Assembly: GCA_015061625.1 (NCBI GenBank)
Contig: SUWG01000005.1
Span: 62,001-126,000, forward strand
Reading direction: 5' to 3'
Length of the DNA stretch: 64,000 nt
From: Lentisphaerota bacterium
Lineage (GTDB): Bacteria > Verrucomicrobiota > Lentisphaeria > Victivallales > Victivallaceae
Shown here: piece after piece, positions 5,146-64,000 of the stretch
Position numbering within the stretch: position 1 is the first letter of the stretch
Layout: each line of letters starts with the position of its first letter
Translations under genes and position numbers: made by a program
Notes under the pieces: model-generated
Databases searched by the model: none
Told to the model about the DNA's origin: nothing
What the model saw: the letters and a program-made list of their open reading frames with translations, nothing else

Positions 5146-5149
5146 TTAT

Positions 5150-16025: not shown

Positions 16026-16310
16026 TATTTGATAGTTATTGTCTTGATTTTTGTGAAAAATATAACCTGCGGTGGCGGCTTGCGGGTAATCTCGCGCCTT
16101 GCTCCTGCGCCGCAACAGTCGAGTACACAGTACACTCCTGTTGCGTACTCGTCGCAAAACCCGACCTTCCTCCGCAATCCATCCACCGGTTGGAACTGAC
16201 CCATGCAGATCTGGTTGAAAAATCACAACTTCTGTGATATATTTTATACATCACAGAAATGTTCATTTATCCCCCCTCTGCCTGGATTTCACAAAATTCG
16301 GGACATTACC
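16026..16310. repeat. Dispersed ~285-bp intergenic repeat, copy 2
   Basis: Lies directly upstream of the aldolase start codon (28 bp). Nearly identical to the copy at 50998-51290 over most of its length: TAGTTATTGTCTT start, GCGGTGGCGGCTTGCGGGTAATC, CGCCGCAACAGTCGAGTAC, CCTTCCTCCGCA, and an end with the palindrome TTCTGTGAT...ATCACAGAA and GGGACATTACC. A TTGAAA-17-TATATT pair occurs on the plus strand inside it. Confidence 0.85.
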
Positions 16311-48904: not shown

Positions 48905-48910
48905 TATATT
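48882..48910 (+). promoter_or_regulatory. Promoter of the second AAA-ATPase/nuclease gene
   Basis: TTGCCA (48882-48887), 17 bp, TATATT (48905-48910), overlapping the end of copy 1; 23 bp before the ATG, the same distance as in copy 1. Confidence 0.6.
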
Positions 48911-48933
48911 ATGTGTTACAGGAGTTTATTGCA

Positions 48934-50487
48934 ATGAAAGATATTACCAGTTACGTTTACAGTTTTGAAGAAATCATACAGGGAAATTTTCTGTATGTGG
49001 ATAAGACCGAATACATCTGGCAACTTATTTTTTCCAACAGTGCCGGTTATTTCCTTTCCCGTCCGCGCCGTTTCGGTAAATCTCTGACTGTTTCCACGTT
49101 AAAAGCGGTCTTTGAGGGCAGAAAAGAACTTTTCAAAGGTTTGGCTCTTTACGATAAACCCTACGATTGGAAGCCGTATCCGGTCATCCACTTGAGTTTC
49201 GGCGATTATAATGTTACTTTCGATGCGATGAAAGAATTGCCGGATTATCTGACGGCAAAAGTAAAAAAAATCGCTGCTGAATACGGTATTGAAGTTTCCG
49301 GCTCCACCCCCGCACTTTGTTTCGGTGATTTGATCGATCAACTTGCCGGAGAAAATAAAGTGGTCATTCTGGTCGATGAATATGATAAACCCATTCTGGA
49401 TAATATTACCAATCCGGAAATCACCAATATCCAGAAGTGTCTGAAAGGTTTTTACAGTGTTTTGAAAGACCGCAATGACAAAGAGCGTTTCCTCTTTGTT
49501 ACGGGTGTGAGTAAATTCAGCCATGTTTCCTTGTTTTCCGATTTGAATAACCTCTCTGATATCACCATGGATGCCCGTTATGCCACGATGTTCGGCTATA
49601 CTCAGGAGGAGTTGGAGGCGAACTTCGGCGACCGTATCGAAGCCGTTGCCGGTGGACAGGATATAGAATCATTCAAAGCCAAAATCAAAGAGTGGTACAA
49701 TGGCTACCGCTTTGAAGAAAAGGCAAAAACGGTTTACAATCCGGTATCTTTTGCCAAATTTCTTGAATCCGGCGGTAAATTCAACAACTACTGGTTTTCC
49801 ACCGGCACGCCCTCGTTTTTATTGGCACTTATTCGCAAAAATCACTTCAATTTTGAGGATGTGCTGACCAATCCGGTTTCCTCTTTCGCCTTTGATGCTT
49901 ATGAAGTTGATAAACTCAACCCCCTGACTCTGCTTTTGCAAACCGGCTATCTGACGATCGACCGGGCGGTGGAAAGGTATGGCGATACCGCTTATATGCT
50001 CCGTTTTCCCAATCTGGAAGTCAAAGGTTCATTTGAGGCTTATCTGACCGGGGATTGCAGCGGCTTGCACGTCGAACAGGTGAAAGATTCTGTTTACCGT
50101 CTGGCGGATAAGGTGACTGCCGGTGATGTGGATGGTTTCATGGAAACCATGAAAATCTTTTTTGCCAAAGTGCCGTATGATGTGCATTGGAAAAATGAAA
50201 GCAATTTCCAGCTGCTTTTTTATTCGATCTTTATGCTGTTGGGTATCAGTATCACCGCTGAATCCCGTACCAACAACGGGCGGATCGACGCAGTGGCGAC
50301 CAATGAAAATTTCGTGTTTGTCTTTGAATTCAAGTTGAATAAAACTGATGAGATTGCCTTACAGCAGATCAGGGAACGCGACTATTTCCGGCGTTATATG
50401 GATTCCGGCAAAAAGATCATGCTTATCGGAGTAAATTTCGATAAAGATGCCGGACAGATCGATCACTGGATTTACGAAGCAGTTTGA
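48934..50487 (+). CDS. AAA-ATPase plus PD-(D/E)XK nuclease protein, copy 2
   Basis: 517 residues, tandem paralogue of copy 1 with the same domain order: FGKSLTVSTL, VVILVDEYDKPI and NGRIDAVATNENFVFVFEFKL. The block from ILVDEYDKP to about residue 270 (ending at TPSFLL) is almost identical in protein and DNA, whereas the ~70 residues before it and everything after it differ strongly, a mosaic left by gene conversion. The ATG at 48934 keeps the MKDITSxVYSFE start and the ACAGGAGTTTATTGCA leader shared with copy 1. The stop overlaps the convergent lipocalin by 16 bp. Confidence 0.9.
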   Translation: MKDITSYVYSFEEIIQGNFLYVDKTEYIWQLIFSNSAGYFLSRPRRFGKSLTVSTLKAVFEGRKELFKGLALYDKPYDWKPYPVIHLSFGDYNVTFDAMKELPDYLTAKVKKIAAEYGIEVSGSTPALCFGDLIDQLAGENKVVILVDEYDKPILDNITNPEITNIQKCLKGFYSVLKDRNDKERFLFVTGVSKFSHVSLFSDLNNLSDITMDARYATMFGYTQEELEANFGDRIEAVAGGQDIESFKAKIKEWYNGYRFEEKAKTVYNPVSFAKFLESGGKFNNYWFSTGTPSFLLALIRKNHFNFEDVLTNPVSSFAFDAYEVDKLNPLTLLLQTGYLTIDRAVERYGDTAYMLRFPNLEVKGSFEAYLTGDCSGLHVEQVKDSVYRLADKVTAGDVDGFMETMKIFFAKVPYDVHWKNESNFQLLFYSIFMLLGISITAESRTNNGRIDAVATNENFVFVFEFKLNKTDEIALQQIRERDYFRRYMDSGKKIMLIGVNFDKDAGQIDHWIYEAV

Positions 50488-50978
50488 GAAAAAATCAGTT
50501 TATCCACCGGAAAACCGTGTGTTTCCAGAAATGTGGTGATCTCTTGTAAATCTGCCGGAGCGAGGTGCGGGGTTCTGGATAATATCCATAAATATTCCGG
50601 AGTGTCGCCCATGACCACGCTGTAACGGTAATCCGGGGCCAGTTTGATGATCCGGTATGAGGCATAAAACGGCCAAAAGAAAGAAACTTCCAATTCTCCG
50701 GTATCGCTTTTTCCGTGTTGCCGGATCTTTCCGGTGACTGACTTCTTTTTACCGTTTTTCATTCCCCGGTTGATCACTTGCAGGGAATTATCCGGCTGCC
50801 GGGAATATTCAGCACTGACATCGCTCATGCCGTTTTCAAACCAATTGGGCAACCGGGCGATCTCATACCATTGCCCCAGATATTTATCCGTTTCAAAACC
50901 GGAAACAGCCGGAATTGCCTGGGGTGTTTTGCATCCTGATAATGCCAGCAAAAAAAGTAAAAATATAAGTATTTTCAT
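50472..50978 (-). CDS. blc: Lipocalin lipoprotein (Blc-like)
   Basis: 168 residues. A lipoprotein signal with lipobox LSGC (Cys16) is followed by the lipocalin motif DKYLGQWYEIARLPNWFE (GxW, about 30-47), the DxxY strand SVVMGD and the C-terminal LWILSRTPHL of bacterial Blc proteins. It would sit in the outer membrane and bind lysophospholipids or fatty acids. It is transcribed towards the AAA-ATPase gene, and a ~285-bp repeat lies 20 bp upstream of its ATG. Confidence 0.92.
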   Translation of the reverse strand: MKILIFLLFLLALSGCKTPQAIPAVSGFETDKYLGQWYEIARLPNWFENGMSDVSAEYSRQPDNSLQVINRGMKNGKKKSVTGKIRQHGKSDTGELEVSFFWPFYASYRIIKLAPDYRYSVVMGDTPEYLWILSRTPHLAPADLQEITTFLETHGFPVDKLIFSQTAS

Positions 50979-50997: not shown

Positions 50998-51290
50998 ACT
51001 GTTAAATATAGTTATTGTCTTATTTTTTGTGGAAAATCTAACCGGCGGTGGCGGCTTGCGGGTAATCTCGCGCCTTGCTCCTGCGCCGCAACAGTCGAGT
51101 CGGCGCAAAAACCGACCTTCCTCCGCAGTCCATCCATCAGTCTTCGCATAAAGCTGCGCCCGGACAAGCCGGTTGGAGCTGACCCGTGCAGACCTGGTTG
51201 AAATCACAACTTCTGTGATATATTTTATACATCACAGGAATGTTCATTTATCCCCTCTGCCTGGATTTCACAAAATTCGGGACATTACCT
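50998..51290. repeat. Dispersed ~285-bp intergenic repeat, copy 3
   Basis: Starts 20 bp upstream of the lipocalin ATG. Same order as copy 2: ATAGTTATTGTCTT, GGCGGTGGCGGCTTGCGGGTAATC, CAACAGTCGAGT, CTTCCTCCGCAGTCC, an inserted CTTCGCATAAAGCTGCG hairpin, ACTTCTGTGATATATTTTATAC and GGGACATTACC. Compared with copy 2 it lacks the GTACACAGTACACTCCTG stretch. It marks the left border of the sigma-TIR-cyclase island. Confidence 0.85.
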
Positions 51291-51441: not shown

Positions 51442-51477
51442 TTGTATTTTGCATAAACCGGTATTATATTTGCATAA
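51442..51477 (+). promoter_or_regulatory. Promoter with direct-repeat operator for the sigma-TIR-cyclase run
   Basis: TTGTAT (51442-51447), 17 bp, TATATT (51465-51470). A direct repeat TTTGCATAA occurs at 51448-51456 and 51469-51477, 21 bp apart, that is two helical turns, straddling the -10. A T13 tract (51407-51419) lies 22 bp upstream of the -35. Confidence 0.6.
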
Positions 51478-51502
51478 CGTTATAACTTTGACGGGTGGAT
51501 TT

Positions 51503-52099
51503 ATGGGGTTGAAAGATTACAGTTCGTTGCCGGATAAAGAATTGGTGGATCTGCTGATCCAAAATGATTCCGGCGCATGGGATTATCTGCTTTTGGATGT
51601 GGTTGCACCTTTGAGCCGGATGCGTAAATATGTGGAAATTTGCAACCGTTATGCCATTTCATCAGATTCATTGGTCACCAGAGTATGGATGATGCTGACT
51701 AAAGATGATTGCCGCCGTTTGCGCAATTTCCGTTTCGCCGCTTCATTCGAAACTTACCTTTTTATCATCGTCCGTGAGGCTCAACGGTACGAAATCAGAG
51801 AAAAAACCGGAAAAATTCAATTTGTGTTGTCAGAAGATAACGAGTTCTGTTCACGAATAAGGTGCAAAGACAGATCGGATGCTCCCGATTTGGTCGATGA
51901 AATGCGCTACACCAACACTCTGCTGGGTAAATTGTGGCAGGAAAACCCCCGCCACGCATGGGTGCTGCTGATGCGGAATTCTCTGAATATGAGTGCAAAA
52001 GAGACCGCCGCCTTTCTCGATCTTAAAGAGAGCAATGTCGATCAGATGAACAAAAGAGCAAAGCACCGTATGAGTGAATTGAGAAAGGCTGACAACTGA
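51503..52099 (+). CDS. ECF-type RNA polymerase sigma factor
   Basis: 198 residues. Region 2 is the N-terminal ~85 residues (LPDKELVDLLIQNDSGAWDYLLLDVV, then RNFRFAASFETYLFIIVREAQRYE) and region 4 is at the C-terminus (AWVLLMRNSLNMSAKETAAFLDLKESNVDQMNKRAKHRMSELRK), an HTH of ECF type without regions 1 and 3. The ATG at 51503 is taken because MGLKDYSSLPDKEL is the natural start; the longer frame is not sigma-like. It overlaps the anti-sigma-like gene by one base (TGATG), the usual sigma/anti-sigma arrangement. It likely directs transcription of the run up to 63.65 kb. Confidence 0.85.
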   Translation: MGLKDYSSLPDKELVDLLIQNDSGAWDYLLLDVVAPLSRMRKYVEICNRYAISSDSLVTRVWMMLTKDDCRRLRNFRFAASFETYLFIIVREAQRYEIREKTGKIQFVLSEDNEFCSRIRCKDRSDAPDLVDEMRYTNTLLGKLWQENPRHAWVLLMRNSLNMSAKETAAFLDLKESNVDQMNKRAKHRMSELRKADN

Positions 52100-52713
52100 T
52101 GAAAAAGATGAATGAAAAATGTCCGGATACCAACACCCTCGCCGAATTCGTTGAGGGAAAACTGCTGGAGAAAAAACACGCGGAATTGGTCCGACACATC
52201 GCCGGATGTCCGGAGTGCCGTGACCTTTGCACTTTCGCCGTGATGGCTAATGGCAGAAAACGGATGCCGCAAGTCGCCGTCAGACGCCGCAATGGTATCC
52301 GGCAGAATATCAAACGGGAAGTTTTCGCAGAAAATACCCTCAAGGCCAGATGGGAGGAATTCTCAAGCCGGGTCAGTGGAATTTTCAAACAGGTCGAATG
52401 CGCTGAAGTTATCGCCGCCGGGGAAAGTGCCGCGGCAGTAAATTTCGCCTGTGAAGCGGAAACTCCGGCCGAATACAACTGGAAAATGGTTTTGAATATC
52501 CCCGCAACTTGCGGCGGTGATCTGGATATCCGGGTGCGCACGGCCAAAGATCCGGCCGTTTCCGGCAAATTGATCTTCTGCGGCAATGAGTTGACGGTCA
52601 CCAACGGCCGGGCAACGATCGGTTATGAAACTTTGAAAAATTCATTCGCCAATCCGGAAGTGGCATTCATTTTTGCCAATAATACCCGTGTCGCCGGATT
52701 CCCGATGCTGTGA
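52099..52713 (+). CDS. Soluble zf-HC2-type anti-sigma-like protein
   Basis: 204 residues. The N-terminus has the anti-sigma zinc-binding layout H-x3-C-x2-C (HIAGCPECRDLC, about 33-44) with CPDTNTLAEFVEGKL before it. The C-terminal ~90 residues are beta-rich (YNWKMVLNIPATCGGDLDIRVRT, GRATIGYETLKN). There is no membrane segment, unusual for an anti-sigma that would need an outside signal, so the inducing signal is probably cytoplasmic. Confidence 0.75.
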   Translation: MKKMNEKCPDTNTLAEFVEGKLLEKKHAELVRHIAGCPECRDLCTFAVMANGRKRMPQVAVRRRNGIRQNIKREVFAENTLKARWEEFSSRVSGIFKQVECAEVIAAGESAAAVNFACEAETPAEYNWKMVLNIPATCGGDLDIRVRTAKDPAVSGKLIFCGNELTVTNGRATIGYETLKNSFANPEVAFIFANNTRVAGFPML

Positions 52714-52735
52714 AAATATAACGGAATGAGGAAAT

Positions 52736-53365
52736 ATGCTTAAAATCGACCAGATACTGCTGGCATCCGGGATCAAAAATCCGGAAGATATCAAAAATGC
52801 GTTTCAGTTGCTTATCCAGACCGGTCTGCAACTGCTCAAAGCTGATGAGGGTTCACTGCTGATCTACCGCAAAGCGGAAAAGGATCTGCAGTTTGCCTGT
52901 ACTATAGGGGCGGATAATCCGGAAGCATTGCTGGGTAAAACGATCCCCATCGGCAAAGGAATTACCGGTATGGCGGCGATGACCTGTGAGATCCAGAGTG
53001 CGTCACGGGCGGCGGGCAGTAACTTTTTTGATATTGCCGATGACGGTTCGCCCAACAGCGTTATTGCCGCACCGATGATGCTTGATGATGAACTTATCGG
53101 TGTGATCACGGCGGTATCGTTTGACCGGGAAAAGAGTTTCAGCACGGCGGATTGTCAGAATTTCTCTCTGCTTTCCCAGATCGGTGCGGTGATAATTTCC
53201 CAGCAGCAGCAGTTGGCCAATTATGCTTCACAGCAGATAAATTCTCTGACTGAAACGGATTCCATCGAGTTGCAGGTGGCGGATGCGGCAGTGAATCTGA
53301 TCCGCAGAAAGCCGGAAAATGCACAAAAAGTTTTGAAAATGCTCTCAATTTTAGGTGAATTATAA
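52736..53365 (+). CDS. GAF-domain sensor protein
   Basis: 209 residues. One GAF domain (about 20-155): NAFQLLIQTGLQLLKADEGSLLIYRKA, GKTIPIGKGITGMAA and APMMLDDELIGVITAVSFD are its usual landmarks. The tail (about 160-209) is helical. GAF domains bind cyclic nucleotides or other small ligands, so with a cyclase in the run this could be the cNMP-responsive member. Its stop precedes the next ATG by one base. Confidence 0.82.
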   Translation: MLKIDQILLASGIKNPEDIKNAFQLLIQTGLQLLKADEGSLLIYRKAEKDLQFACTIGADNPEALLGKTIPIGKGITGMAAMTCEIQSASRAAGSNFFDIADDGSPNSVIAAPMMLDDELIGVITAVSFDREKSFSTADCQNFSLLSQIGAVIISQQQQLANYASQQINSLTETDSIELQVADAAVNLIRRKPENAQKVLKMLSILGEL

Positions 53366-53366
53366 A

Positions 53367-54899
53367 ATGTATCTGCTTTCCGACGTTCTTGCAGTTTCCA
53401 TTCCGCAGTTACGTTCACAGCGGTTGCATCCGGTGACGGTGGCGGTGATCGACAGCGGGGTGGATTCATCCCATGAGGCGTTGCGTAAAAAGGTCGTCGG
53501 AGCATGGGAATTCACCGAGAGTGATGACGGCGGAGTAAACTGCCGGAAGCTGCCGGAAAAAAGCAATAATGACGATGCCGGTCACGGTACGGCAGTGGCA
53601 AGTATCATTTCCCGGATCGCGCCGAATGCCAGAATATTGGACTTCAAAGTTTTGAGTGCCGGTTTTGCCGGTTCGGGCAAGGTGATGCTCAAAGGTTTGG
53701 AAGCGGCGATTGAGTCAGAGGCAAAAATTATCAATATGAGTCTGGCGTGTCTGGTCAAGTATCGCAGTGAATTGGAAGACTTGCTGGAAAAGGCCTATTT
53801 GCGGCACAAGATCATAATTGCTTCCAAACGCAACATTCCCAAGCCGGGAGATTTGGGATTTCCGGCGGAGTTATCCAGTTGTATAGCCGTGGATAATTAT
53901 TCTTTTGATACGCCGTTTCTGATCCGGCACACCGGCGAACAGCCGATCGAATTTGCCGCTCACGGCGAGAATGTTTTGAGTGCCAAACATGGCGGCGGTT
54001 ACTACCGGTTGACCGGAACGAGTTTTGCCACGCCCACGGTTTCCGGAGTGACGGCACTGCTGCTGGGCAGATTTCCGGAATTAGAGTTGTTTGAGATCAA
54101 GTCGGTTTTGAAGTATCACTCCGACCGCAACACCTATAAAAGCACCAAAGAGGTCAATCCGCTGGAAATCGGCGGGGTGGAACGTGACCGCACCAGGGCG
54201 TTGGGTTGTGTCTGCGGCAAATGCGGAGAATTTTTTGCGGTGAATGAGGCATTTTCCTATGCCTGCTGTCCGGAATGCGGACACACGACACCGCTGATTT
54301 TTGCGCTGGATAAGAAGTTATGCAAAGAGGTGCTGGATCATCTGGAATTCAATTTGCCGGAGAAGTGTCTGTATCATAACAAGCGGCACACCAGAGAGGT
54401 GGTGGCCAATGTCCACGCATTTGCGAGCCGTTATAATTCGATAAGCCGCAGAAAGATGCGTTGTCTGATGACGGCGGCGTTGCTTCATGATGTCGGTTAC
54501 ACGGTTCAGTACGATGATAATGAACCGCTGGCGGTGGAGTATGCGCAAAAGATATTGCCGGGATACGGTTACAGTGCCAAAGATATCGAATTGATCTGCC
54601 GGTTGATATTGGCGACAACGATGCCGGTCAAGCCGCAGGATTTGCTGGAAAAGATCATTTGTGATGCGGATGTGGGTCATATCGGTCTGGCGAATTATTA
54701 TGAGCGATCCCGGTTGTTGAGAGAGGAATTGGAAAATTACGGGATAGTGCGCAATGACCGGGAATTTCTGGAAAATGAAGCGGAATTTCTGCGGGGGCAT
54801 CGCTTTTTTCAACCGTTTTTGGAAAAGGAGCGCAAGGAGGCGCGCAAAAAGACTTTGCGGACGATCGAATTACTGCTGGCCGCTTTAAAAAGTAAATAA
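53367..54899 (+). CDS. Subtilisin-like protease fused to a zinc ribbon and an HD phosphohydrolase
   Basis: 510 residues, no signal peptide. Residues 20-250 are an S8 peptidase with the full triad: VAVIDSGVDSSH (Asp29), DAGHGTAVAS (His73) and TGTSFATPTVSG (Ser219), plus Asn156 in the oxyanion region. About 270-300 is a zinc ribbon, CVCGKCGEFF...CCPECGH. About 325-490 is an HD domain: LYHNKRHTREVV, AALLHDVGY and ICDADVGHIG, with the YHNxxHT start seen in cyclic-nucleotide phosphodiesterase-like HD proteins. ATG 53367 is preferred (AGGTGA eight bases upstream). The fusion is one I do not recognise. Confidence 0.85.
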   Translation: MYLLSDVLAVSIPQLRSQRLHPVTVAVIDSGVDSSHEALRKKVVGAWEFTESDDGGVNCRKLPEKSNNDDAGHGTAVASIISRIAPNARILDFKVLSAGFAGSGKVMLKGLEAAIESEAKIINMSLACLVKYRSELEDLLEKAYLRHKIIIASKRNIPKPGDLGFPAELSSCIAVDNYSFDTPFLIRHTGEQPIEFAAHGENVLSAKHGGGYYRLTGTSFATPTVSGVTALLLGRFPELELFEIKSVLKYHSDRNTYKSTKEVNPLEIGGVERDRTRALGCVCGKCGEFFAVNEAFSYACCPECGHTTPLIFALDKKLCKEVLDHLEFNLPEKCLYHNKRHTREVVANVHAFASRYNSISRRKMRCLMTAALLHDVGYTVQYDDNEPLAVEYAQKILPGYGYSAKDIELICRLILATTMPVKPQDLLEKIICDADVGHIGLANYYERSRLLREELENYGIVRNDREFLENEAEFLRGHRFFQPFLEKERKEARKKTLRTIELLLAALKSK

Positions 54900-54945
54900 A
54901 AATTTCGCTCTCCGTCGTAAGGAGACGTGATCCAACGGCGGAAAA
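54892..54945. repeat. CTCC/GGAG hairpin repeat unit
   Basis: AAATTTCGCTCTCCGTCGTAAGGAGACGTGATCCAACGGCGG-like sequence overlapping the stop of the S8-HD gene; the same unit as at 42597-42680 with the hairpin shortened. Confidence 0.7.
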
Positions 54946-55034
54946 ATTGAATAAAAATTAATAAAGTCTGTCAGAAAAACGATCGGCGAAGCACTGAATA
55001 TAACAGAAAGAACAAAACAAAAAAGGAATTGAAA

Positions 55035-55244
55035 ATGGCTGAATACAAAAAACTTACCGATGCGGAAGCCGCACAGATCGCAGTTGATGAAATTGGTAAA
55101 ACAGCTCCGGTCGGCAACGGGGAAGTCGAAGTGCAGGGATTTGTGATCTGTCCATTTTGTGATGCCGCATTGCACACCTGCGGCACTCCGGATTATGCGC
55201 AATGCTGTGTTTGCGAACACACATTCAATATCCGGTGGGATTGA
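55035..55244 (+). CDS. Small leader plus Zn-knuckle protein 1 (possible exported peptide precursor)
   Basis: 69 residues. An acidic/helical N-terminal part MAEYKKLTDAEAAQIAVDEI (1-20) is followed by a linker and a Cys-rich C-terminal half with CPFC (about 39-42) and CCVC (57-60) that can hold zinc or be modified. It is 40-50% similar to the next gene, both starting MAE-F/Y-KKLTDAE. Placed between a protease fusion and an ABC exporter, it looks like a peptide precursor or a small Zn-ribbon protein. AAGGAATTGAAA precedes the ATG. Confidence 0.75.
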   Translation: MAEYKKLTDAEAAQIAVDEIGKTAPVGNGEVEVQGFVICPFCDAALHTCGTPDYAQCCVCEHTFNIRWD

Positions 55245-55325
55245 ATAAGGTTGGTCGGGGAAATACCCCATAAGAAAAATAGAAAGTAGCCATAACCAAA
55301 ACAATTAAAAAAAGGAGAAAAGAAA

Positions 55326-55535
55326 ATGGCTGAATTCAAAAAACTTACCGATGCTGAAATCGCAGAAATCAACGCTTCCGAAATTGTCGATCTGGAAAAA
55401 GCCGGCGATGCTGACGTTCAGGCGCAGAGTGCTGAATGTGTTTGCCCGTATTGCAAAACTTATCTGTATTTCCGCGGTTATCCCAAATATGGTCGTTGCA
55501 GTAACTGCGGTGGTGTTTTCCGTATCTATTATTGA
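55326..55535 (+). CDS. Small leader plus Zn-knuckle protein 2 (paralogue)
   Basis: 69 residues, the same length as its paralogue. MAEFKKLTDAEIAEINASEI is the shared leader-like part; the C-terminal half has CVCPYC (37-42) and CSNC (58-61) with aromatic residues (YLYFRGYPKYG, FRIYY). AAAGGAGAAAAGAAA gives a very strong SD. A 14-bp stem follows at 55584. Whether it is a RiPP-like precursor or a folded Zn ribbon cannot be decided from sequence. Confidence 0.75.
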   Translation: MAEFKKLTDAEIAEINASEIVDLEKAGDADVQAQSAECVCPYCKTYLYFRGYPKYGRCSNCGGVFRIYY

Positions 55536-55583
55536 AAAGGGGGAAACCGCAGACGGGATACTGTCTGCTGTACGATTTGGGAA

Positions 55584-55615
55584 GATCGGTTTGCCGTATA
55601 AACGGCAAACCGATC
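55584..55615 (+). terminator. Attenuator-like hairpin between peptide genes and exporter
   Basis: A perfect 14-bp stem (55584-55597 and 55602-55615, GATCGGTTTGCCGT) with loop ATAA, followed by GTTTCGTTACTTTAAAA, which is not a full T tract. It may cut or pause the message so that the peptide genes are made in excess. Confidence 0.6.
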
Positions 55616-55651
55616 GTTTCGTTACTTTAAAAATCTGAACAGGTGGAAATA

Positions 55652-57472
55652 ATGCTCGGTTTACTTTCCAAATATTTTTATCTCGGCAAAAAGTTCTTTT
55701 TCCGGCGTAAATCTTTTTATCTTTTTATTTTATTTATTTGCGCTGTACAGATTTTTGATGTTTTATTTCCCAAAGTTACCGGCTATCTGGTGATGGTGCT
55801 TCAGCGTGTCGGAGCCGGAGAAAACTCTTCGCCGATGTCAGCAGCGGTTATTTTTCTGTCTTGCGGTGTGGCGGCATTATTTTGCCGTTTGCTTTGCGGT
55901 GTTGCAGAAAGGATTCTGGAAAGTGGAGTGAGCCGGGATATCCGGCAGGCGGTGCATGATCAGACATTGGTTATGAGTCCGCAGTTTTTTGATGAAAATA
56001 AATCCGGCGAATGTATGATGAATGTGGAAAGCGGCAATGCGGTGGCGATGACACTTGCCAACTTTTTTTCCTTGCCGCTGGTGATGCTTTCCGGAGCGGG
56101 ATTCGGTTTGGTGATGTTGATCGATTCTTTGCGGCAGGCCAATATTCCCTGGTGGCTGATCGCTTTGCTGATACCATTTATCATTTTGCAACCGTTATGC
56201 GGTTATTATCTGGGCGAATTGACGAACCGGGCATTTGCCAAATTGCGCAAGGATAATATCGCTGTCCGTAATGAGTTGATAAACTCGTTTCATGCGCCGT
56301 TGGAAATTCAGCAGATGGATGCATTCAAGCAACGCAGTGCGGTATTGGATCAAGCATTGCGGTCACAAACCGGAAAATCGATCAAAGCAAATTGCATCGG
56401 AATATTGGAAAACCAGTTGTCCGGTTCCTTTATTTTGATCGTTCAGGTTTGTGTAGCTTTTATTGCGGTGATAAAATATTCAGAGAGCAACAGTGCGGCG
56501 ATTGCGGGTATCGTGGAATGTTTTTTGCTGATTCCGGCGATATTTTCCCAGATATCCGATTTGGTTTCGGTTTACACGATGCAGAAGCAATCGGAAGTTG
56601 ATGTCGATGTGGTTTATGCGCTGTTGAATTCAAAAGTTCATGTGAAAGATGCTGCCGATGCCGGGGAGGTCGAATTTACTCCGGCGCCGTCGATCACGCT
56701 GGATGAGGTTTCTTTCGGTTATACGCCGGAAAAAACGGTGCTGGATGGGGTAAATTTGCATATTCCTGCCGGAAAATTGACGGCGATAACTGCCAATTCC
56801 GGTGGAGGTAAATCGACATTGTTTCATTTGGTTTCGCGCATACATACTCCGTTGTCAGGACGGATTTTGCTGGATGATACTGATATAAAGCAGATAAAAT
56901 CGGCGTGTTTGCGCTCGCAGTTGGTAAAAGTTTCCCAGTTTCCGTTGTTTATTCAGGGGAGTTTGCGGGATAATTTCCGGCTGCAGAAGGCGGATGTGAC
57001 CGATGAGGAGATCGAAAAAGTATGCCGGGAAACGGGAATAATCCATCTGTTTGAACAAAATGGCGGCACGGTCGGGGATTTCCAGTTGACTTTGGGGGCG
57101 GAAAATCTTTCCGGCGGGCAGAGAAGATTGTTGAGTATTGCCAGGGCCATGCTCAAAGATCCGGCGGTTCTGCTGTTGGATGAACCGACTACGGGGGTGG
57201 ATGCGCAGAGCATTCAGCAGATCATTCTGCCGTGTCTGCAAAAGTTAAAAGCGCACCGCACCGTATTGCTGGTCGATCACAATATGAATTTTGTCCGTTC
57301 ACTGGCGGATATGGTGCTGGTGTTGGATAAGGGCAAAGTGACCGATTTCGGGGCAACGGAAACGGTGTGGAGCAATGAAAATTCACTTTTCCGGCAGTTG
57401 TGGGAAGAATATAACAAAAATCAGAGTCATACCGTGTCAGAAAATGGCGGTGATGAACCACCAAAGCAGTGA
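55652..57472 (+). CDS. ABC exporter (fused permease and ATPase)
   Basis: 606 residues. The N-terminal ~320 residues have six membrane segments of exporter type; the ATPase has Walker A NSGGGKST (about 380; the first Gly is replaced by Ala-Asn), the signature LSGGQRR (about 495), Walker B VLLLDEPT and the H-loop LLVDHN. It lacks a C39 peptidase domain, so a leader would have to be cut by another protease. It would export a peptide or lipid; the upstream small genes are candidate cargo. The ATG at 55652 follows AGGTGG. Confidence 0.9.
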   Translation: MLGLLSKYFYLGKKFFFRRKSFYLFILFICAVQIFDVLFPKVTGYLVMVLQRVGAGENSSPMSAAVIFLSCGVAALFCRLLCGVAERILESGVSRDIRQAVHDQTLVMSPQFFDENKSGECMMNVESGNAVAMTLANFFSLPLVMLSGAGFGLVMLIDSLRQANIPWWLIALLIPFIILQPLCGYYLGELTNRAFAKLRKDNIAVRNELINSFHAPLEIQQMDAFKQRSAVLDQALRSQTGKSIKANCIGILENQLSGSFILIVQVCVAFIAVIKYSESNSAAIAGIVECFLLIPAIFSQISDLVSVYTMQKQSEVDVDVVYALLNSKVHVKDAADAGEVEFTPAPSITLDEVSFGYTPEKTVLDGVNLHIPAGKLTAITANSGGGKSTLFHLVSRIHTPLSGRILLDDTDIKQIKSACLRSQLVKVSQFPLFIQGSLRDNFRLQKADVTDEEIEKVCRETGIIHLFEQNGGTVGDFQLTLGAENLSGGQRRLLSIARAMLKDPAVLLLDEPTTGVDAQSIQQIILPCLQKLKAHRTVLLVDHNMNFVRSLADMVLVLDKGKVTDFGATETVWSNENSLFRQLWEEYNKNQSHTVSENGGDEPPKQ

Positions 57473-57496
57473 CGTATAACTAATATTCCGGGGGAA

Positions 57497-60400
57497 ATGA
57501 TGCCGAAACAGTATTATGCTTTTATCAGTTATTCAAGGAAGAATTCCAGAGCCGCCAACTATTTGCACCGGCAGTTGGAACACTTCCGTATTCCGGTCAA
57601 ACTGGTTGCCGAGGAAAACCGCCCGGAAAACAGCAAATTTCTGCGACCCATTTTTCGTGACCGCCGGGATCTGGAGGCTTCGGAACGGAATTTTGATGAA
57701 GATCTCAAACAGGCATTGGAAAATTCCCGTTATCTGATCGTGTTGTGTTCACCGGAATCGGCAGCTTCGGAGTATGTGGAAAATGAGATCAAATACTTTC
57801 TGGAATCTCATGCCAATGATTATTCTGCCGTCGTGCCGGTCATCTACAACAGCGGCAGCAACAGCGGCGGTCATTGGGAAGATGAGTGTCTGCCGGAAGT
57901 GTTGCGCTGTGAGGCGATCACCAGACGCAACTTACCCAATATGCAGCCGGATGCCGGGGAAAAGGAAAAAACGGGCTGGGAAAACGGCTTGATCCAATCT
58001 TTGAGTTATATGCTCAAGGTCAGCCGGGGAAAACTCAAATCATCGGTCGATGCCGAAAAAATGCGTCATTTGAGAAGTCAGGTGACACTGTTTTCATTAT
58101 TTTCCGTGGCATTAGTCCTTTTTGCGGTGTTGGCGGTTTATCATAAGAATCTGGCCGAAGCCAACGAGCGTTTGGCAAGAACGGCCCAGTATTACGCCGA
58201 AAAAAATGAAGCACGGGCAAGAGCCAACGAGGCAAAGGCAACTGCGGCACAGCATGAGGCAAAAGCCAACGAGGCAAAGGCAACTGCGGCCCAGCGTGAG
58301 GCTGATACCGCCCGGCAGAATGCCGAAGCGGCAAGACAGCAGGCACAGGCAGAGCGTGATATTGCGGTAAGATATCAGGAGTTTATCCATACGATATTTG
58401 CTGAACTTAATCCGAGAATTATTCCATACGAAGTAATCAGAACCAATGCTCCGGGAAGTTCAGGAGAGAGTCGCGGTGATGTTGATGACGGTGATGTTGA
58501 TGGCGGTAATGCCCCGGCAGTTGAGGCATCCGGAACATCCGGAGTGAAGATTGCCGGTGATCCTCAAACGAAAAAAACTCTGAAGGAAGTAATTTTGGCA
58601 AAACTTCCGGAAATCCGTAATTTTGAAGAGTGGAAACTGAAAACTGAATTGCTGACTTTTGCTGCTTATTTATTGAGTGATGAAAATGATTTTGAACAGG
58701 CATTGGCTTTGCATCAGGAAATTCTGGCAATTTATGAGGAAGAAAAAGTCGATCCGGTATTTTTTGCCAGAACATACAATCATATCGGGACAATATACTT
58801 TACTCAAAAAGACTATGTAAAATCATTAGAGTATCATCTAATGGCATTGGAGATTTTTAACGAAAAAGGCATTGAAAATCTGGAAGTATCCGAAACTTAT
58901 AGTAGTATAGGCAATGCTCATTTCTCGAATGAGCAATATGATAAGGCCTTGGAATATTATACCCGTGCCGTAACAATCTATGAAAAACTTCCGGGATGTG
59001 AGGTTGGTGTTGCAACCAATTATGCCAATATTGCCGGAGTTTATGAAAAACTCGGCGATAACAACAAAGCCTTGGAATTTCACCTTAAAGCTTTGGTTAT
59101 CCGTGAAGAAAAACTTGGCGAGCATCAAGATACTGCTGTGTCATACAATCAAATCGGCAATGTTTATTATAATCTTAAAGAATATGATAAAGCCTTGGAA
59201 TATTATACCCGTGCCGTAACAATCAATGAAAAACTTTCCGGACATGAAGTGGATCTTGCAACTAATTATAACAATATAGGCAATGTTTATTTATCTCTTG
59301 AGCAATACAACAAATCTTTGGAATTTCACCTTAAAGCCTTGGAAATCCGAGAAGAAAAACTTGGCGAGCATCAATATACAGCATGGTCTTGTTATTTGAT
59401 CGGTTACATATTTTACAATCAGAAAAACTACAGTGAAGCACTGACCTATTATCTCAAATGTGCCGCGATTGAGGAAAAAATTCAAGGTCAGGTTGCCGAT
59501 ACTGCTGCTACCTACAACGTTATAGGCGCGACTTATTATCGTCTGGAACAATATGATAAGGCCTTGGAATATTATACCCGTGCCGTAACAATCAACGAAA
59601 AACTTTCGGGGCGTGAAGTGGCTGTTGCCACCAATTATAACAATATTGCCAAAGTTTATGAAAAACTCGGCGATAACAACAAAGCCTTGGAATTTCACCT
59701 TAAAGCCTTGGAAATCCGAGAAGAAAAACTTGGCGAGCATCGTGATACCGCAAACAGTTGTTGGGAAATTGCGAATATATATTTCAATCAGGAAAAATAT
59801 GAAGAAGCTTTGACCTATTATCTCAAATGTGCCGCGATTGATGAAAAAATTCAAGGACAGGTCGCCGATACTGCTGTTACTTATGCCAATATTGCCGGAG
59901 TTTATAAAAAACTTGGCGATAACAACAAAGCCTTAGAGTATCATCTTAAAGCCTTGGCTATCCGTGAAGCAAAACTCGGCGAACATCAATATACCGCATG
60001 GTCTTGTAATCAAATCGGCATTGTTTATTATAGTCTTAAAGAATATGATAAAGCCTTGGAATATTTTACCCGTGCCGTAACAATCTATGAAAAACTTTCC
60101 GGACATGAAGTGGATCTTGCAACTAATTATAACAATATTGCCGGAGTTTATGAAAAACTTGGCGATAACAACAAAGCCTTGGAATTTTACCTTAAAGCCT
60201 TGGAAATCCGTGAAGAAAAGCTCGGCGAGCATCAAGATACCGCATGGTCTTGTAATCAAATCGGCTATGTTTATTATTCCCTTGAACAATATGATAAAGC
60301 CTTGGAATATTATACCCGTGCCGTAACAATCAACGAAAAACTTTCGGGGCGTGAAGTGGCTGTTGCCACCAATTATAACAATATTGCCGAAGTTTATGAA

Positions 60401-61771
60401 AAACTTGGCGATAACAACAAAGCCTTGGAATTTCACCTTAAAGCCTTGGAAATCCGAGAAGAAAAACTTGGCGAGCATCGTGATACCGCAAACTGTTGTT
60501 GGGAAATTGCGAATATATATTTCAATCAGGAAAAATACGCAGATGCTTTGACCTATCTTCTCAAATGTGCCGCAATTGAGGAAAAAATTCAAGGACAGGT
60601 GGCCGATACTGCAACTACTTATTACAGTATCGGCAAAACTTATGAAAGACTTGGCGATAACAACAAATCCTTGGAGTATCACCTTAAAGCCTTGGAAATC
60701 CGAGAAGAAAAACTTGGCGAACATCGTGATACCGCAAACAGTTGTTGGGAAATTGCGAATATATATTTCAATCAGGAAAAATATGAAGAGGCTTTGCCCT
60801 ATTATCTTAAATGTGCCGCGATTGAGGAAAAAATTCAAGGACAGGTTGCCGATACTGCTGTTACTTATGCCAATATTGCCAAAGTTTATGAAAAACTTGG
60901 CGATAACGACAAGGCATTGGAGTATCATCTTAAAGCCTTGGCTATCCGTGAAGAAATACTCGGTGATCATCGTGATACTGCAACCAGTTGTTGGAGAATT
61001 GCGAATATATATTTTGTACAGAAAAAATACGCAGATGCTTTGACCTATCTTCTCAAATGTGCCGCGATTGATGAAAAAATTCAAGGACAGGTTGCCGATA
61101 CTGCTGTTACTTATGCCAATATTGCCAAAGTTTATGAAAAACTTGGCGATAACGACAAGGCATTGGAGTATCACCTTAAAGACTTGGCTATCCGTGAAGA
61201 AATACTCGGTGATCATCGTGATACTGCAACCAGTTGTTGGAGAATTGCGAATATATATTTTGTACAGAAAAAATACGCAGATGCTTTGACCTATCTTCTC
61301 AAATGTGCCGCGATTGAGGAAAAAATTCAAGGACAGGTTGCCGATACTGCTGTTATCTACAACGCTATAGGCGTGACCTATTATCGTCTGGGGCAATATG
61401 ATAAAGCCTTGGAATATTATACCCGTGCCGTAACAATCAACGAAAAACTTTCGGGGTATGAAGTGGCTCTTGCCTCCAATTATTACAATATTGCCAAAGT
61501 TTATGAAAAACTCGGCGATAATGGCAAGGCTTTGGAGTATCACCTTAAGGCCTTGGTTATCCGTGAAGAAAAACTTGGCGAGCATCGTGATACTGCAAGT
61601 AGTTGTTACAATGCGGCAACCGCATATTCGGCCCTGGGTGACCGGGCCAAAGCACTTGAATTTTTGCGCCGGGCAGTGTATATTGCTGAAAAGACTCTCG
61701 GTGCAGAGCATCAGACGACGTTGCAATATAAAAATAAATTGCAGACTTTGGAAAACAGTGAACAAAATTAA
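57497..61771 (+). CDS. TIR - transmembrane - coiled coil - TPR protein
   Basis: 1424 residues. Residues 1-120 are a bacterial TIR domain: YYAFISYSRKNSRAANYLHRQL, FRDRRDLEASERNF, and SPESAASEYVENEIKYF where Glu97 corresponds to the catalytic Glu of NADase TIRs. A membrane helix lies at about 195-217, then a coiled coil of ANEAKATAAQ repeats (220-300), and about 25 TPR units of 42 residues (roughly 375-1415), alternating YDKALEYYTRAVTI, NNKALEFHLKALEI and ALTYYLKCAAI types. Many units are nearly identical in DNA. TPR DNA is noticeably AT-richer than the flanks. It is 24 bp behind the exporter. Confidence 0.88.
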   Translation: MMPKQYYAFISYSRKNSRAANYLHRQLEHFRIPVKLVAEENRPENSKFLRPIFRDRRDLEASERNFDEDLKQALENSRYLIVLCSPESAASEYVENEIKYFLESHANDYSAVVPVIYNSGSNSGGHWEDECLPEVLRCEAITRRNLPNMQPDAGEKEKTGWENGLIQSLSYMLKVSRGKLKSSVDAEKMRHLRSQVTLFSLFSVALVLFAVLAVYHKNLAEANERLARTAQYYAEKNEARARANEAKATAAQHEAKANEAKATAAQREADTARQNAEAARQQAQAERDIAVRYQEFIHTIFAELNPRIIPYEVIRTNAPGSSGESRGDVDDGDVDGGNAPAVEASGTSGVKIAGDPQTKKTLKEVILAKLPEIRNFEEWKLKTELLTFAAYLLSDENDFEQALALHQEILAIYEEEKVDPVFFARTYNHIGTIYFTQKDYVKSLEYHLMALEIFNEKGIENLEVSETYSSIGNAHFSNEQYDKALEYYTRAVTIYEKLPGCEVGVATNYANIAGVYEKLGDNNKALEFHLKALVIREEKLGEHQDTAVSYNQIGNVYYNLKEYDKALEYYTRAVTINEKLSGHEVDLATNYNNIGNVYLSLEQYNKSLEFHLKALEIREEKLGEHQYTAWSCYLIGYIFYNQKNYSEALTYYLKCAAIEEKIQGQVADTAATYNVIGATYYRLEQYDKALEYYTRAVTINEKLSGREVAVATNYNNIAKVYEKLGDNNKALEFHLKALEIREEKLGEHRDTANSCWEIANIYFNQEKYEEALTYYLKCAAIDEKIQGQVADTAVTYANIAGVYKKLGDNNKALEYHLKALAIREAKLGEHQYTAWSCNQIGIVYYSLKEYDKALEYFTRAVTIYEKLSGHEVDLATNYNNIAGVYEKLGDNNKALEFYLKALEIREEKLGEHQDTAWSCNQIGYVYYSLEQYDKALEYYTRAVTINEKLSGREVAVATNYNNIAEVYEKLGDNNKALEFHLKALEIREEKLGEHRDTANCCWEIANIYFNQEKYADALTYLLKCAAIEEKIQGQVADTATTYYSIGKTYERLGDNNKSLEYHLKALEIREEKLGEHRDTANSCWEIANIYFNQEKYEEALPYYLKCAAIEEKIQGQVADTAVTYANIAKVYEKLGDNDKALEYHLKALAIREEILGDHRDTATSCWRIANIYFVQKKYADALTYLLKCAAIDEKIQGQVADTAVTYANIAKVYEKLGDNDKALEYHLKDLAIREEILGDHRDTATSCWRIANIYFVQKKYADALTYLLKCAAIEEKIQGQVADTAVIYNAIGVTYYRLGQYDKALEYYTRAVTINEKLSGYEVALASNYYNIAKVYEKLGDNGKALEYHLKALVIREEKLGEHRDTASSCYNAATAYSALGDRAKALEFLRRAVYIAEKTLGAEHQTTLQYKNKLQTLENSEQN

Positions 61772-61785
61772 TATATGGGGCGTTT

Positions 61786-63090
61786 ATGGAAAAACTTGTT
61801 GAAAAATTGAAAAGCAGGCGGAAACTTTCCGTGCGGGAGGTGCGCGAGTTGATCCGCAACCGGGATAAGTGGCCCGAAGATCTCTCCGCTCTGCTCGCCC
61901 GCCGGGCTCTGGAAATGGGCGAAAATTTCTACGCTTATGATATCGCCGAAAATATTCCCGAAAATGACCCGCAAAGCGTTGTGCAGAAACTGCATATCAT
62001 GGCTCTCGCTCTCGCCCGTTCCGGTTCGCTGGAACGCGCTTCGGAATTGCTGAAAAAACTCCCCGATTCCGACAGCACCGAGATCGTCGGCCTCAAATCA
62101 CGCATCCTTAAAGATATGGCGGTAAATACGGTCGATGAAGAGAAAAAACGGGAACTTTTCAAGCGATCCGCCGAATTGAGTTTATCCATATTCAAGCAGA
62201 AAAATCAATACTACAACGGGATCAATGCCGCCAGTTGTCTCTTTATGGCCGGAGAAAAAAACGCCGCGGAAAAACTTATCAGGGAAGAAGTCCTGCCGCT
62301 TTGCCAGGCCGTCGAAAACCCCGGCTTGTGGGAAGAGGCCACGCTCGGTGAGTGCTTTCTGCTCCTCAACGATTACGAAGTCGCCGCCACTCATTACGGT
62401 ACCGCCGCCAATATCGCTCTGCAATCCGGACAACTCGGCAATTTCGCTTCCACTTTGAAGCAATTTTATATGCTCGCCGCCAACTTCCCGGAAAACTCCA
62501 TTCAACTCGTCATCGAAAAAATGCACCTGCCGGGCATCGGTATCTTTTCCGGTCACATGATCGACCGGCCGGGGCGCAAAATTCCCCGCTTCCCCGCTTA
62601 CGCCGAAGAACAGGTCAGAAGTGAACTGGCGGAGATCATCCGTAAACGCAACATCCGCATCGCATTCTGCTCCTGCGCCTGCGGCGGGGATATCCTCTTT
62701 CTCGAAGAAGTCCTCAAAGCCGGCGGCGAATGTTTCATCGTGCCGCCGCTGCCCATGGAGGCCACCATTTCCGGCAGTGTCGATATCATCCCCGGAGCCA
62801 ACTGGAAAGAACGCCTTTTCAATATTTTCAAAAATGACAACGTCTTTGTCTTTGAACCGGAATGTGACGAGATCGGTGTCGATGATGATGCCATCGTTTA
62901 CGATTTCACCAACCGTTATATCCTCGGTATCGCCGTTTTCCGGTCGCAGACTCTGCACTTCCCGCTTTTCGGCGTGACCGTGTGGAATGGCGAAAAATCC
63001 GGGCTTACCGGCGGCACCGATTCCGCTATCGCCCATTGGCAGCAAAAGAATATTCCACTGGATATCGTTACCCCGGAGATAAAAAAATGA
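61786..63090 (+). CDS. TPR plus SLOG-like Rossmann-domain protein
   Basis: 434 residues. Residues 1-245 are helical TPR-like repeats (HYGTAANIALQSGQLGNFAST). Residues 250-434 form an alpha/beta domain with GIGIFSGHMIDRPGR, CSCACGGDILFLEEVLKAGG and FTNRYILGIAVFRSQTL...VWNGEKSGLTGGT. I recall FSGHMIDxPGR...ACGxDILFxE in long proteins that carry a class III cyclase or a TPR/TRAFs-binding region, where it resembles the SLOG/LOG nucleotide-binding fold. Here it is separate from the cyclase gene, which it overlaps by four bases (ATGA), so the two probably act as a pair. Confidence 0.75.
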   Translation: MEKLVEKLKSRRKLSVREVRELIRNRDKWPEDLSALLARRALEMGENFYAYDIAENIPENDPQSVVQKLHIMALALARSGSLERASELLKKLPDSDSTEIVGLKSRILKDMAVNTVDEEKKRELFKRSAELSLSIFKQKNQYYNGINAASCLFMAGEKNAAEKLIREEVLPLCQAVENPGLWEEATLGECFLLLNDYEVAATHYGTAANIALQSGQLGNFASTLKQFYMLAANFPENSIQLVIEKMHLPGIGIFSGHMIDRPGRKIPRFPAYAEEQVRSELAEIIRKRNIRIAFCSCACGGDILFLEEVLKAGGECFIVPPLPMEATISGSVDIIPGANWKERLFNIFKNDNVFVFEPECDEIGVDDDAIVYDFTNRYILGIAVFRSQTLHFPLFGVTVWNGEKSGLTGGTDSAIAHWQQKNIPLDIVTPEIKK

Positions 63091-63650
63091 CCAGACGATC
63101 AATTAAAGCTCTGCTCTTTTCCGATGTCAAAAGTTTCAGTAAACTTTCGGAAAAAGAGTGTATCAATTTCTGCCGTATTTTTCATTCCGGTATTCAGAGT
63201 GATGTCCTTGCCGCTTACGATGACCGCATCGTGCTGAAAAATACCTGGGGCGATGCCCTGCACGTCGTGATGGATGATGTCGTTACCGCCGGAAAACTCG
63301 CCCTCGATCTGCGGGATTGGATGGCCGGATTCAACTGGCAGAATGCCGGAATATCTTCCACTCCGGAAATACGCATCGGCCTGCACGCCGGAGTCGTTTC
63401 CCACGTCGCCGACCCCATTACCGGAAAATTCAACTACATCGGGCGCAATACTTCCAAAGCCGCCCGTATCGAACCGATCACCTTTGAAGGGCAGGTATTC
63501 GTCAGTCAGGCTTTCGCCGCTTTGCTCTCCGCACAGGGGTCAGATGAACTTACCTGCGAATATGTGGGAGTCAGAGAACTGCCGAAAAATTCCGGCAGTA
63601 TAAGCGTGTATCTGCTTCAACGTAAATCTGCCAGAGACCGCTACCGCTGA
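63087..63650 (+). CDS. Class III nucleotidyl cyclase, catalytic domain
   Basis: 187 residues, a single cyclase domain. Metal Asp13 is in FSDVKSF and Asp56 in NTWGDAL; RIGLHAGVV and NYIGRNTSKAARIEP (115-130) follow. The two canonical purine-specifying positions are both Asn here (Asn52 for Lys, Asn116 for Asp), and the transition-state Asn is Ser123 while Arg127 is kept. So the NTP it uses is uncertain. The ATG overlaps the TPR/SLOG-like stop by four bases, with CCGGAG just upstream. Confidence 0.85.
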   Translation: MTRRSIKALLFSDVKSFSKLSEKECINFCRIFHSGIQSDVLAAYDDRIVLKNTWGDALHVVMDDVVTAGKLALDLRDWMAGFNWQNAGISSTPEIRIGLHAGVVSHVADPITGKFNYIGRNTSKAARIEPITFEGQVFVSQAFAALLSAQGSDELTCEYVGVRELPKNSGSISVYLLQRKSARDRYR

Positions 63651-63653
63651 CGG

Positions 63654-64000
63654 CGGCGGCTCGCGGGCAATTTCTTGTCAAGTCATCGGACACCGGCCCG
63701 GTCGGGTACATAGTACACCTTGTCCGCCGGAGCCTTGGCAAAGGCGGATCCCTCGCCGTTGCCTTGACTTGACGTCGACATTGCCTCACGATCCATCCGC
63801 CGGTTTCCGGCGGCGGCTCGCGGGCTTTTTTCTTGTCAAGTCATCGGACCCCGGCTCGGTCGAGTACATAGTACACCTTGTCCGCCGTTTCCTTGCTCTC
63901 CGTTACTCCGGCGGCGGCTCGCGGGCAATTTCTTGTCAAGTCATCGGACACCGGCTCGGTCGAGTACATAGTACACTCCCTCGCCGTTGCCTTGACTTGA
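63654..64000. repeat. Tandem repeats of the GTACATAGTAC family at the right edge
   Basis: Three units start CGGCGGCTCGCGGGC at 63654, 63811 and 63912, each with TTTCTTGTCAAGTCATCGGA and GGTCGRGTACATAGTACAC. The first two are 157 and 101 bp long; the third may run past the window. It forms the right border of the island; no gene seen. Confidence 0.85.

Follow-up and report, generated by a model that had tools for sequence, protein, structure and literature searches.

A run of ten genes in a 64,000-nucleotide stretch of the genome of a gut bacterium of the Lentisphaerota (assembly GCA_015061625.1, contig SUWG01000005.1, positions 62,001 to 126,000; hereafter the window) consists of a conserved core and a four-gene insert, and the cluster is modular. 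The core encodes a sigma factor of the extracytoplasmic function (ECF) type, a soluble zinc anti-sigma factor, a GAF domain protein, a fusion of a subtilase (S8) with an HD phosphohydrolase, a TPR-S/SLOG protein and a putative class III nucleotide cyclase, and the insert encodes two small peptides (here termed pepA and pepB), an ABC exporter and a TIR protein with a transmembrane (TM) segment and TPRs. Because this core recurs in other bacteria alongside TIR proteins, it may belong to an alarm or immune circuit of a kind not yet described. An earlier examination of the same DNA (the original prediction) had placed ten genes on one strand, which is borne out by the open reading frames (ORFs) and the domain scan; its view of them as a single ten-gene unit had to be abandoned, since a sister species lacks the block of peptide, exporter and TIR genes at its orthologous locus.

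Conserved core and insert in related loci

The same-genus genome G025 (locus L115, JAFVZS010000102, a sheep-colon Lentisphaeria metagenome-assembled genome, MAG) carries the six core genes contiguously in the order sigma, anti-sigma, GAF, S8-HD, TPR-S/SLOG and cyclase, with 62-90% identity by domain. The two peptides, the exporter and the TIR gene are all missing from this locus, the downstream neighbours of which match those of the window (by sequence, presumably a lipoprotein gene and leuS), and the block 54900-61771 therefore represents either an insertion or a loss in the sister. In a roe-deer Lentisphaeria locus (L116, with the same ORFs as L210 of G334) HD and S8 are separate genes and the order is sigma, anti-sigma, HD, GAF, S8, TPR-S/SLOG and cyclase, and in G331 both a sigma-antisigma-HD-GAF-S8 block and a TPR-S/SLOG gene are present, each on its own contig. 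The operon of G056, which belongs to another genus, starts with a sigma gene (named by a match at E=9.5e-32), an anti-sigma gene (named by a match of 26% identity), an M48 peptidase with a zinc ribbon and two small genes, and continues with a TIR protein of 1508 aa, TPR-S/SLOG, cyclase and a TIR-TPR protein of 897 aa.

The set also reaches another phylum. Locus L119 (Cyanobacteriota; Candidatus Gastranaerophilales MAG from red deer) holds contiguous GAF, S8-HD, exporter, TPR-S/SLOG and cyclase genes, and its proteins, including a pepB homologue encoded on the divergent strand, are 34-67% identical to those of the window. Contamination of this MAG was considered and rejected, because the G+C content of the locus (32.5%) fits that of its flanks (34.8-35.2%) and not the 50% of the window. 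S8-HD at E<=1e-20 was found in 1 of the 193 genomes searched around L119, its own included, so that the gene set appears to be rare there. The comparison of neighbourhoods found the genes together in other genomes, so that the lack of co-occurrence by which the original prediction would have been refuted was not observed.

Distribution of the core genes

Co-occurrence was examined in 130 relatives (own genome included; the set is taken as identical across searches, from their equal settings). TPR-S/SLOG was detected in five of them. The S8 domain was present in eight, namely the same five with E<=2.1e-56 and three further genomes with weaker matches (E>=1.6e-15), and close sigma homologues (E<1e-30) occurred in exactly these five genomes, with weaker ones only in eight more. 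The TIR-TM family was found in seven of the 130, among them all five core genomes. Within this set, only two genomes of the window's genus have the core, which hence seems to have been often gained or lost. As a separate observation, the TIR-TM-X family is multicopy in G331 (10 matches), G334 (4) and G000 (3); in the neighbourhoods seen, its genes are mostly solitary and vary in their C-terminal parts.

The cyclase module and its TIR partner

When a collection of 84,980 species genomes was scanned for TPR-S/SLOG joined to the cyclase, it yielded 295 relatives, 80 of which were kept; these belong to the Verrucomicrobiota, Cyanobacteriota, Pseudomonadota, Acidobacteriota, Planctomycetota and other groups. 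Of the 77 loci L118-L194, all but L119 and L158, in which the cyclase part is split off, have the TPR-S/SLOG and cyclase parts in a single frame (75 loci), and the gut forms with separate genes make up one five-row clade in a quick cyclase tree (SH-aLRT 100). The TPR-S assignment of the window protein (PF20308) is secure, at 48.5 bits against a Pfam gathering cut-off of 27.6, and its other domain belongs to the SLOG superfamily (Rossmann-like fold, YpsA/LOG type). The window cyclase is a putative class III enzyme, with a Guanylate_cyc match above cut-off, both metal-binding Asp residues and the transition-state Arg kept, and the transition-state Asn replaced by Ser. Both Asp are intact in the 80 rows as well, the Arg is intact in 79 of them, and the purine-lysine position is Asn in 68 of 80, a count biased by the scan pattern, which contained NTWGD and favours intact cyclase motifs. 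Two fused relatives (L065:8315-10330 and L067:8470-10476) lack the second metal Asp (WGD changed to WLK or WNG) and may therefore bind the signal rather than make it. The TIR domain of the window keeps the position of a glutamate that we take to be catalytic.

TIR is the commonest operon partner of these mostly fused TPR-S-SLOG-cyclase genes. Among 81 same-strand neighbours TIR_2 occurs 17 times, DUF4062 five times and nSTAND1 four times, whereas TIR_2 is not among the families with at least two members in 81 genes located >6.5 kb away, one of which (in L184) has a TIR by BLAST. The difference (17/81 versus 1/81; Fisher p = 6e-5) is somewhat favoured by the greater length of the neighbour proteins (37,291 versus 22,486 residues). 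This comparison used ORFs of >=100 aa from 75 of the loci L118-L194, with L119 and L170 left out; the neighbours came from 46 loci and the 81 far genes, sampled at random from 161, from 40. Some TIR proteins next to a cyclase (L187:217-2556 and L110:11310-15836) carry a KYDERGNxIEEAYFGxDGKP-type repeat instead of TPRs, in a long array in L110.

Several of these distant loci combine the module with further core genes. A gammaproteobacterial MAG (L152) encodes a sigma-like protein (below cut-off), GAF, S8, a kinase-like protein (named from its sequence, without domain scan), TIR, the sole fused protein scanned with an N-terminal RyR domain (RyR-TPR-S-SLOG-cyclase) and HD; in L063 a separate RyR protein adjoins the fused one. 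The alphaproteobacterial L178 has GAF, S8 and a 1229-aa fusion of an ABC exporter with TPR-S-SLOG-cyclase, L145 has S8, sigma and an anti-sigma-like gene, and L158 has TIR, HD and cyclase. In both L152 and L158, HD lies directly beside the cyclase protein.

Peptidases associated with sigma and anti-sigma factors

The catalytic residues of the S8 domain (D33, H77, N160 and S223) are invariant in nine aligned sequences, and the HD domain, for which no match was found among PDB sequences at E<=0.1, shows the pattern HNxxHT...HD...D. A GAF gene is located directly upstream of S8 in L115, L116, L119, L032, L152, L178 and L211. When the 77 loci L118-L194 were compared with the window proteins (BLAST E<=0.01; the Lentisphaeria loci L115-L117 left out), S8-like genes were identified in the flanks of L119, L145, L152, L178 and L193 and, weakly, in L132 and L126, with GAF and S8 together near TPR-S-SLOG-cyclase in L119, L152 and L178, and S8 near it in L145 and L193. 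The protease arm is hence a minority partner of the cyclase.

A regularity overlooked by the original prediction is that the sigma/anti-sigma pair almost always stands ahead of a peptidase. In 14 of the 15 sigma loci (all the sigma places from the search of 130 relatives) the sigma gene is followed by the anti-sigma gene and then by a peptidase gene within three genes of the latter, G077 being the single exception. The peptidase is S8 in four cases (window, G025, G334:C11 and G331), M48 in two (G056 and G334:C3) and papain-like C1 in eight (G144, G339, G334:C114, G014, G002, G013, G049 and G027). The C1 label was given by Pfam to L227, L213 and L212, the last of which lacks the QGxR(G/N)TCxAF motif, and to the other five by this motif together with BLAST to L227; L228, the only one of these five put to Pfam, gave no match. 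That peptidases from three unrelated families accompany a soluble zinc anti-sigma factor at the same position suggests that the peptidase acts with this factor, and the regularity as a whole suggests proteolytic release of the sigma factor. Hydropathy reveals TM segments in only two proteins of the run, the exporter and the TIR protein (192-220), and both the S8 protease and the anti-sigma factor should therefore be cytosolic.

The same sigma/anti-sigma family also heads loci with a papain-like protease and coiled-coil proteins (L227:1694-5367, L213:9747-18000 and L229:3755-11110), where a coiled-coil protein (L227:1694-2323) matches Snf7 (ESCRT-III) at 2.3e-7 and an AAA ATPase (L213:13068-14267) and a caspase protein (L229:9119-11110) are encoded. 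These loci are a possible membrane-remodelling conflict system.

A putative signalling circuit and its alternatives

Taken together, the recurrence of the core, the co-occurrence of its genes, the partnership with TIR, the adjacency of GAF to S8 and of HD to the cyclase, the exporter fusion of L178, the sigma-peptidase loci and the precedents of Calp and Qhp lead us to a tentative reading, to which we attach slightly less than an even chance: the cluster may be a modular conflict or stress circuit signalled by a cyclic nucleotide, in which a protease would free the sigma factor as in Calp. Detection of an insult by the TPR-S/SLOG protein would switch on the partner cyclase, and the cyclic nucleotide made by it would be sensed by the GAF protein, unleashing the cytosolic subtilase. 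The latter would then cut the soluble zinc anti-sigma factor and thereby free the sigma factor to raise expression of the locus, in the manner of CalpL, CalpT and CalpS, until the switch is reset through hydrolysis of the signal by the HD domain. As effector, targeting nicotinamide adenine dinucleotide, the circuit would use the membrane-anchored TIR-TPR protein and, in this species and one Cyanobacteriota MAG, an accessory arm might comprise linker-like zinc-ribbon peptides that the subtilase would also cleave and the ABC transporter would export. The response under cyclic-nucleotide control that the original prediction put forward is upheld insofar as the metal Asp residues, the HD pattern and the TIR glutamate position are kept, the activities of cyclase, HD and TIR themselves being predicted.

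Several observations count against this proposal. The TIR-TM family occurs without the core in G013 and G024, and the chance of overlaps such as those reported above, computed as 3e-9 and 7e-8, assumes independent genomes and ignores shared ancestry, so that with five core genomes in three genera the values are overstated. TPR-S/SLOG is rare in the phylum (11 of 288 genomes). Ser takes the place of the transition-state Asn in the window cyclase and in 46 of the 80 rows, and the window GAF domain is without the full NKFDE motif. In G056, M48 stands in place of S8, with GAF and S8 at the end of another contig, and neither the sigma nor the anti-sigma protein has a Pfam match. L115 and L116 have no TIR gene within the locus, TIR-TM genes being found elsewhere in both genomes, and L119 shows no sigma, anti-sigma or TIR gene in its 21.7 kb. 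Most of the 77 loci L118-L194, many flanks of which end at contig ends, show no S8, GAF or sigma by BLAST, and outside these bacteria the cyclase/TIR pair hence apparently functions with no protease arm. Finally, it may be the signal, and not the insult, that the SLOG or TPR domain senses.

Among other explanations, the sigma pair might simply switch on a TPR-S-SLOG-cyclase/TIR island, with peptidases that do not act on the anti-sigma factor and are instead interchangeable effectors digesting cell proteins. The occupation of one place by three unrelated peptidase families is what effectors often display, and peptidase, cyclase and TIR domains are all listed among the parts of conflict systems in the available text of PMC7159879. 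This explanation is nevertheless rather unlikely in our view, because several phyla have kept loci in which GAF immediately precedes S8 and because the S8 domain resembles QhpE (NCBIfam QH_SP, 2.9e-24; 85.6 bits, below the 165-bit cut-off), which excerpts of PMC7876137 portray as a single-turnover processing protease and not a bulk one.

The insert raises the question of whether the locus might be devoted to peptide signalling or bacteriocin production. pepA and pepB are 41% identical, and pepB has a homologue in L119 (34%, E=1.6e-14 in a search against 12 window sequences only) and resembles the linker of the L119 S8-HD protein (30% over 60 aa, E=4e-6 in a single comparison). E19 (pepB numbering) and four cysteines are shared by pepA, pepB, the L119 peptide and the S8-HD linker, so that these peptides look like free copies of the protease linker and are candidate substrates, decoys or inhibitors. 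The exporter also has a homologue in L119 (46%, E=6e-178), and the 110 nucleotides around a hairpin between pepB and the exporter gene (55584-55615) fold with -44.2 kcal/mol (z = -6.3), which would be in keeping with a greater output of precursor than of exporter. S8 might cut a leader from pepA and pepB and the exporter secrete the product, with cyclase, TIR and sigma regulating the process or protecting the producer, a scheme for which the recurrence of peptide, S8-HD and exporter in L119, the strong hairpin and the QhpE/QhpF precedent (PMC7876137, in part) can be invoked. We regard it as improbable, because neither peptides nor an exporter are seen at three core loci (L115, L116 and G056), because genes for modification or immunity were not recognised, and because searches of the 130 relatives gave, besides pepA and pepB themselves, just two partial ribbon matches (G002 and G078). 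A search of ten genomes returned a full-length peptide homologue only in that of L119; among the weaker matches are the linkers between S8 and HD of G343 and, judging from its length, of G346. Of the layout of ribosomally synthesised and post-translationally modified peptides that the original prediction had recognised, the cluster has protease, exporter and peptides, which recur together in another phylum; domains of known modifying enzymes do not appear in the matches shown for the ten proteins, and the locus was not assigned to this class of clusters.

A last alternative, in which TPR-S-SLOG-cyclase and TIR are the only functional unit, TIR is controlled by TPR contact and the cyclase is a nucleotide sensor, gains from the prevalence of TIR as operon partner, the want of a cyclic-nucleotide-binding domain in the window TIR protein (Pfam) and the loss of metal residues in L065 and L067, and is again improbable given the intact Asp and Arg of the window and of 79-80 of the 80 rows (in a scan favouring intact motifs) and the HD genes beside the cyclase in L152 and L158.

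A more elaborate version of the circuit that we prefer is very unlikely but worth recording. It would be a CRISPR-independent, Calp-like alarm with a cyclic mononucleotide of unusual base, in which the GAF-gated subtilase would free the sigma factor and also cut pepA and pepB as free-standing copies of its own linker. Sent out by the ABC exporter to neighbouring cells, these messages would let detection in one cell prime its kin, and TIR would kill or arrest the sender.

Layout of the window

The ten genes (Table 1) occupy 51503-63650. Three of the nine intergenic gaps are overlaps and seven of the nine (overlaps included) are below 82 bp, the loose spots being 135 bp before pepA and 116 bp between pepB and the exporter gene. 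Clear Pfam matches were obtained for GAF, Peptidase_S8, HD, ABC, TIR, TPR, TPR-S and Guanylate_cyc.

Table 1. Genes and features of the cluster, in window coordinates.
Feature	Position	Strand	Remarks
ECF-like sigma factor, 198 aa from ATG	51503..52099	+	weak Sigma70_r4_2 and sigma70-ECF (2e-5), both below cut-off
Soluble zinc anti-sigma factor	52099..52713	+	no TM; HxxxCxxC at residue 33; zf-HC2 match (2e-4) narrowly below cut-off
GAF domain protein	52736..53365	+	GAF_2 2.6e-8; gene overlaps protease gene by 11 bp
Cytosolic subtilase (S8)-zinc ribbon-HD phosphohydrolase fusion	53355..54899	+	S8 1e-25, HD 2.3e-8
pepA, 69 aa	55035..55244	+	N-terminal part and CxxC...CxxC ribbon; aligns with S8-HD linker
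pepB, 69 aa	55326..55535	+	homologue in L119; resembles L119 S8-HD linker
14-bp perfect hairpin	55584..55615	+	between peptide genes and exporter gene; in list of terminator-like scan
ABC exporter half-transporter without peptidase domain	55652..57472	+	ABC_tran 6e-26
TIR-TM (192-220)-TPR array, putative membrane effector	57500..61771	+	TIR_2 7.7e-12; ~20 TPRs
TPR-S sensor repeats and SLOG (YpsA-like) domain	61786..63090	+	
Putative class III nucleotide cyclase, noncanonical base-recognition residues	63087..63650	+	Guanylate_cyc 1.1e-9

Dispersed repeats with related copies are found at 50998-51290, 63651-64000, 5147-5430, 16032-16310 and 42779-42870. A composite transposon delimited by repeats was rejected, as related copies lie elsewhere in the window and the sister has the core with the same downstream neighbours. 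Phage or plasmid cargo was likewise discarded: the TPR-S/SLOG protein matched none of 50,697 phage records, its seven matches in 72,556 plasmid records were all partial (34-64% of the query) and each of <60% identity, and PHROGs returned only general protease, phosphohydrolase, tail-fibre (the coil) and unknown-function matches. Upstream, two tandem, closely similar proteins of ~525 aa (47333-50487) are presumably AAA-ATPase-like/PD-(D/E)XK fusions, and a small lipoprotein on the reverse strand (50472-50978) has what we take to be the look of a bacterial lipocalin.

Comparison with known systems

A close parallel to the proposed circuit is Calp, in which CalpL binds cyclic tetra-adenylate (cA4) and cuts the anti-sigma factor CalpT, freeing CalpS (PMC12751052, in excerpt). 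A nucleotide signal, a cytosolic protease, an anti-sigma factor and a sigma factor are united there in one pathway, and a signal-degrading activity lies within the system, the SAVED domain of CalpL being a ring nuclease according to the part of PMC11417357 consulted; its counterpart here would be the putative HD phosphohydrolase. The two differ in that Cas10, SAVED and Lon are absent from the Pfam matches shown for the ten proteins; instead of a SAVED-Lon protease the window has an S8 protease with zinc ribbon and HD, together with a separate GAF protein, a putative class III cyclase with TPR-S/SLOG and a putative TIR effector. As regards sigma release, sigma-like and anti-sigma-like genes are present, and cleavage of the anti-sigma factor is a prediction.

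The occurrence of a putative class III cyclase and a TIR protein in one locus recalls Pycsar, to which the original prediction had linked the cluster. PycTIR, however, uses a cyclic-nucleotide-binding domain (PMC11224242, in part), whereas the window TIR protein has TM and TPR, and the Pfam matches listed at E<=0.1 (for the TIR protein, 25 of 27 families) include no such domain in any of the ten proteins. The cluster is therefore not Pycsar, and the PADLOC PycC model matches its cyclase only weakly (E=0.0022, 15 bits). Thoeris (ThsB TIR with SIR2-SLOG ThsA) does not fit either, with ThsB_TIR at 6e-8 and no SIR2 among the matches shown, nor does the FxSxx-COOH system, for which FxsC scores 23.2 bits against a cut-off of 130 and FxSxx_TPR 179.8 against 300. 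In the Qhp system the leader is cleaved off by QhpE while still in the cytosol, QhpF then acting as exporter, and the excerpted account (PMC7876137) shares with the window a cytosolic subtilase, an ABC exporter and a small cysteine-bearing substrate with leader, but radical SAM and flavoprotein are absent from the matches for the ten proteins and S8 stays below the QhpE cut-off.

The conflict systems catalogued by the Aravind group likewise combine cNMP cyclase, peptidase, TIR and TPR parts in swappable modules, whereas TPR-S-SLOG-cyclase with GAF-S8, zinc anti-sigma and linker-like peptides is not described in the portions of PMC7159879 and PMC8195603 consulted. No account of this TPR-S/SLOG/S8/GAF/TIR/sigma/cyclase set was found in the literature searched, which did not cover the papers of 2015 and 2020 that define SLOG/RyR and TPR-S. 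The TPR-S part connects the cluster to the central regulatory region of the animal stress kinase ASK1 (MAP3K5), with no kinase here, but SLOG and cyclase.

If the proposed circuit is correct, protease-controlled sigma release by a nucleotide messenger, as in type III CRISPR Calp, would be a wider strategy with swappable S8, M48 and papain-like proteases, to which a widespread, uncharacterised TPR-S-SLOG-cyclase/TIR pair would be added across many phyla. Should the peptide and exporter arm be an outward signal, it would constitute an intercellular branch of such a response.

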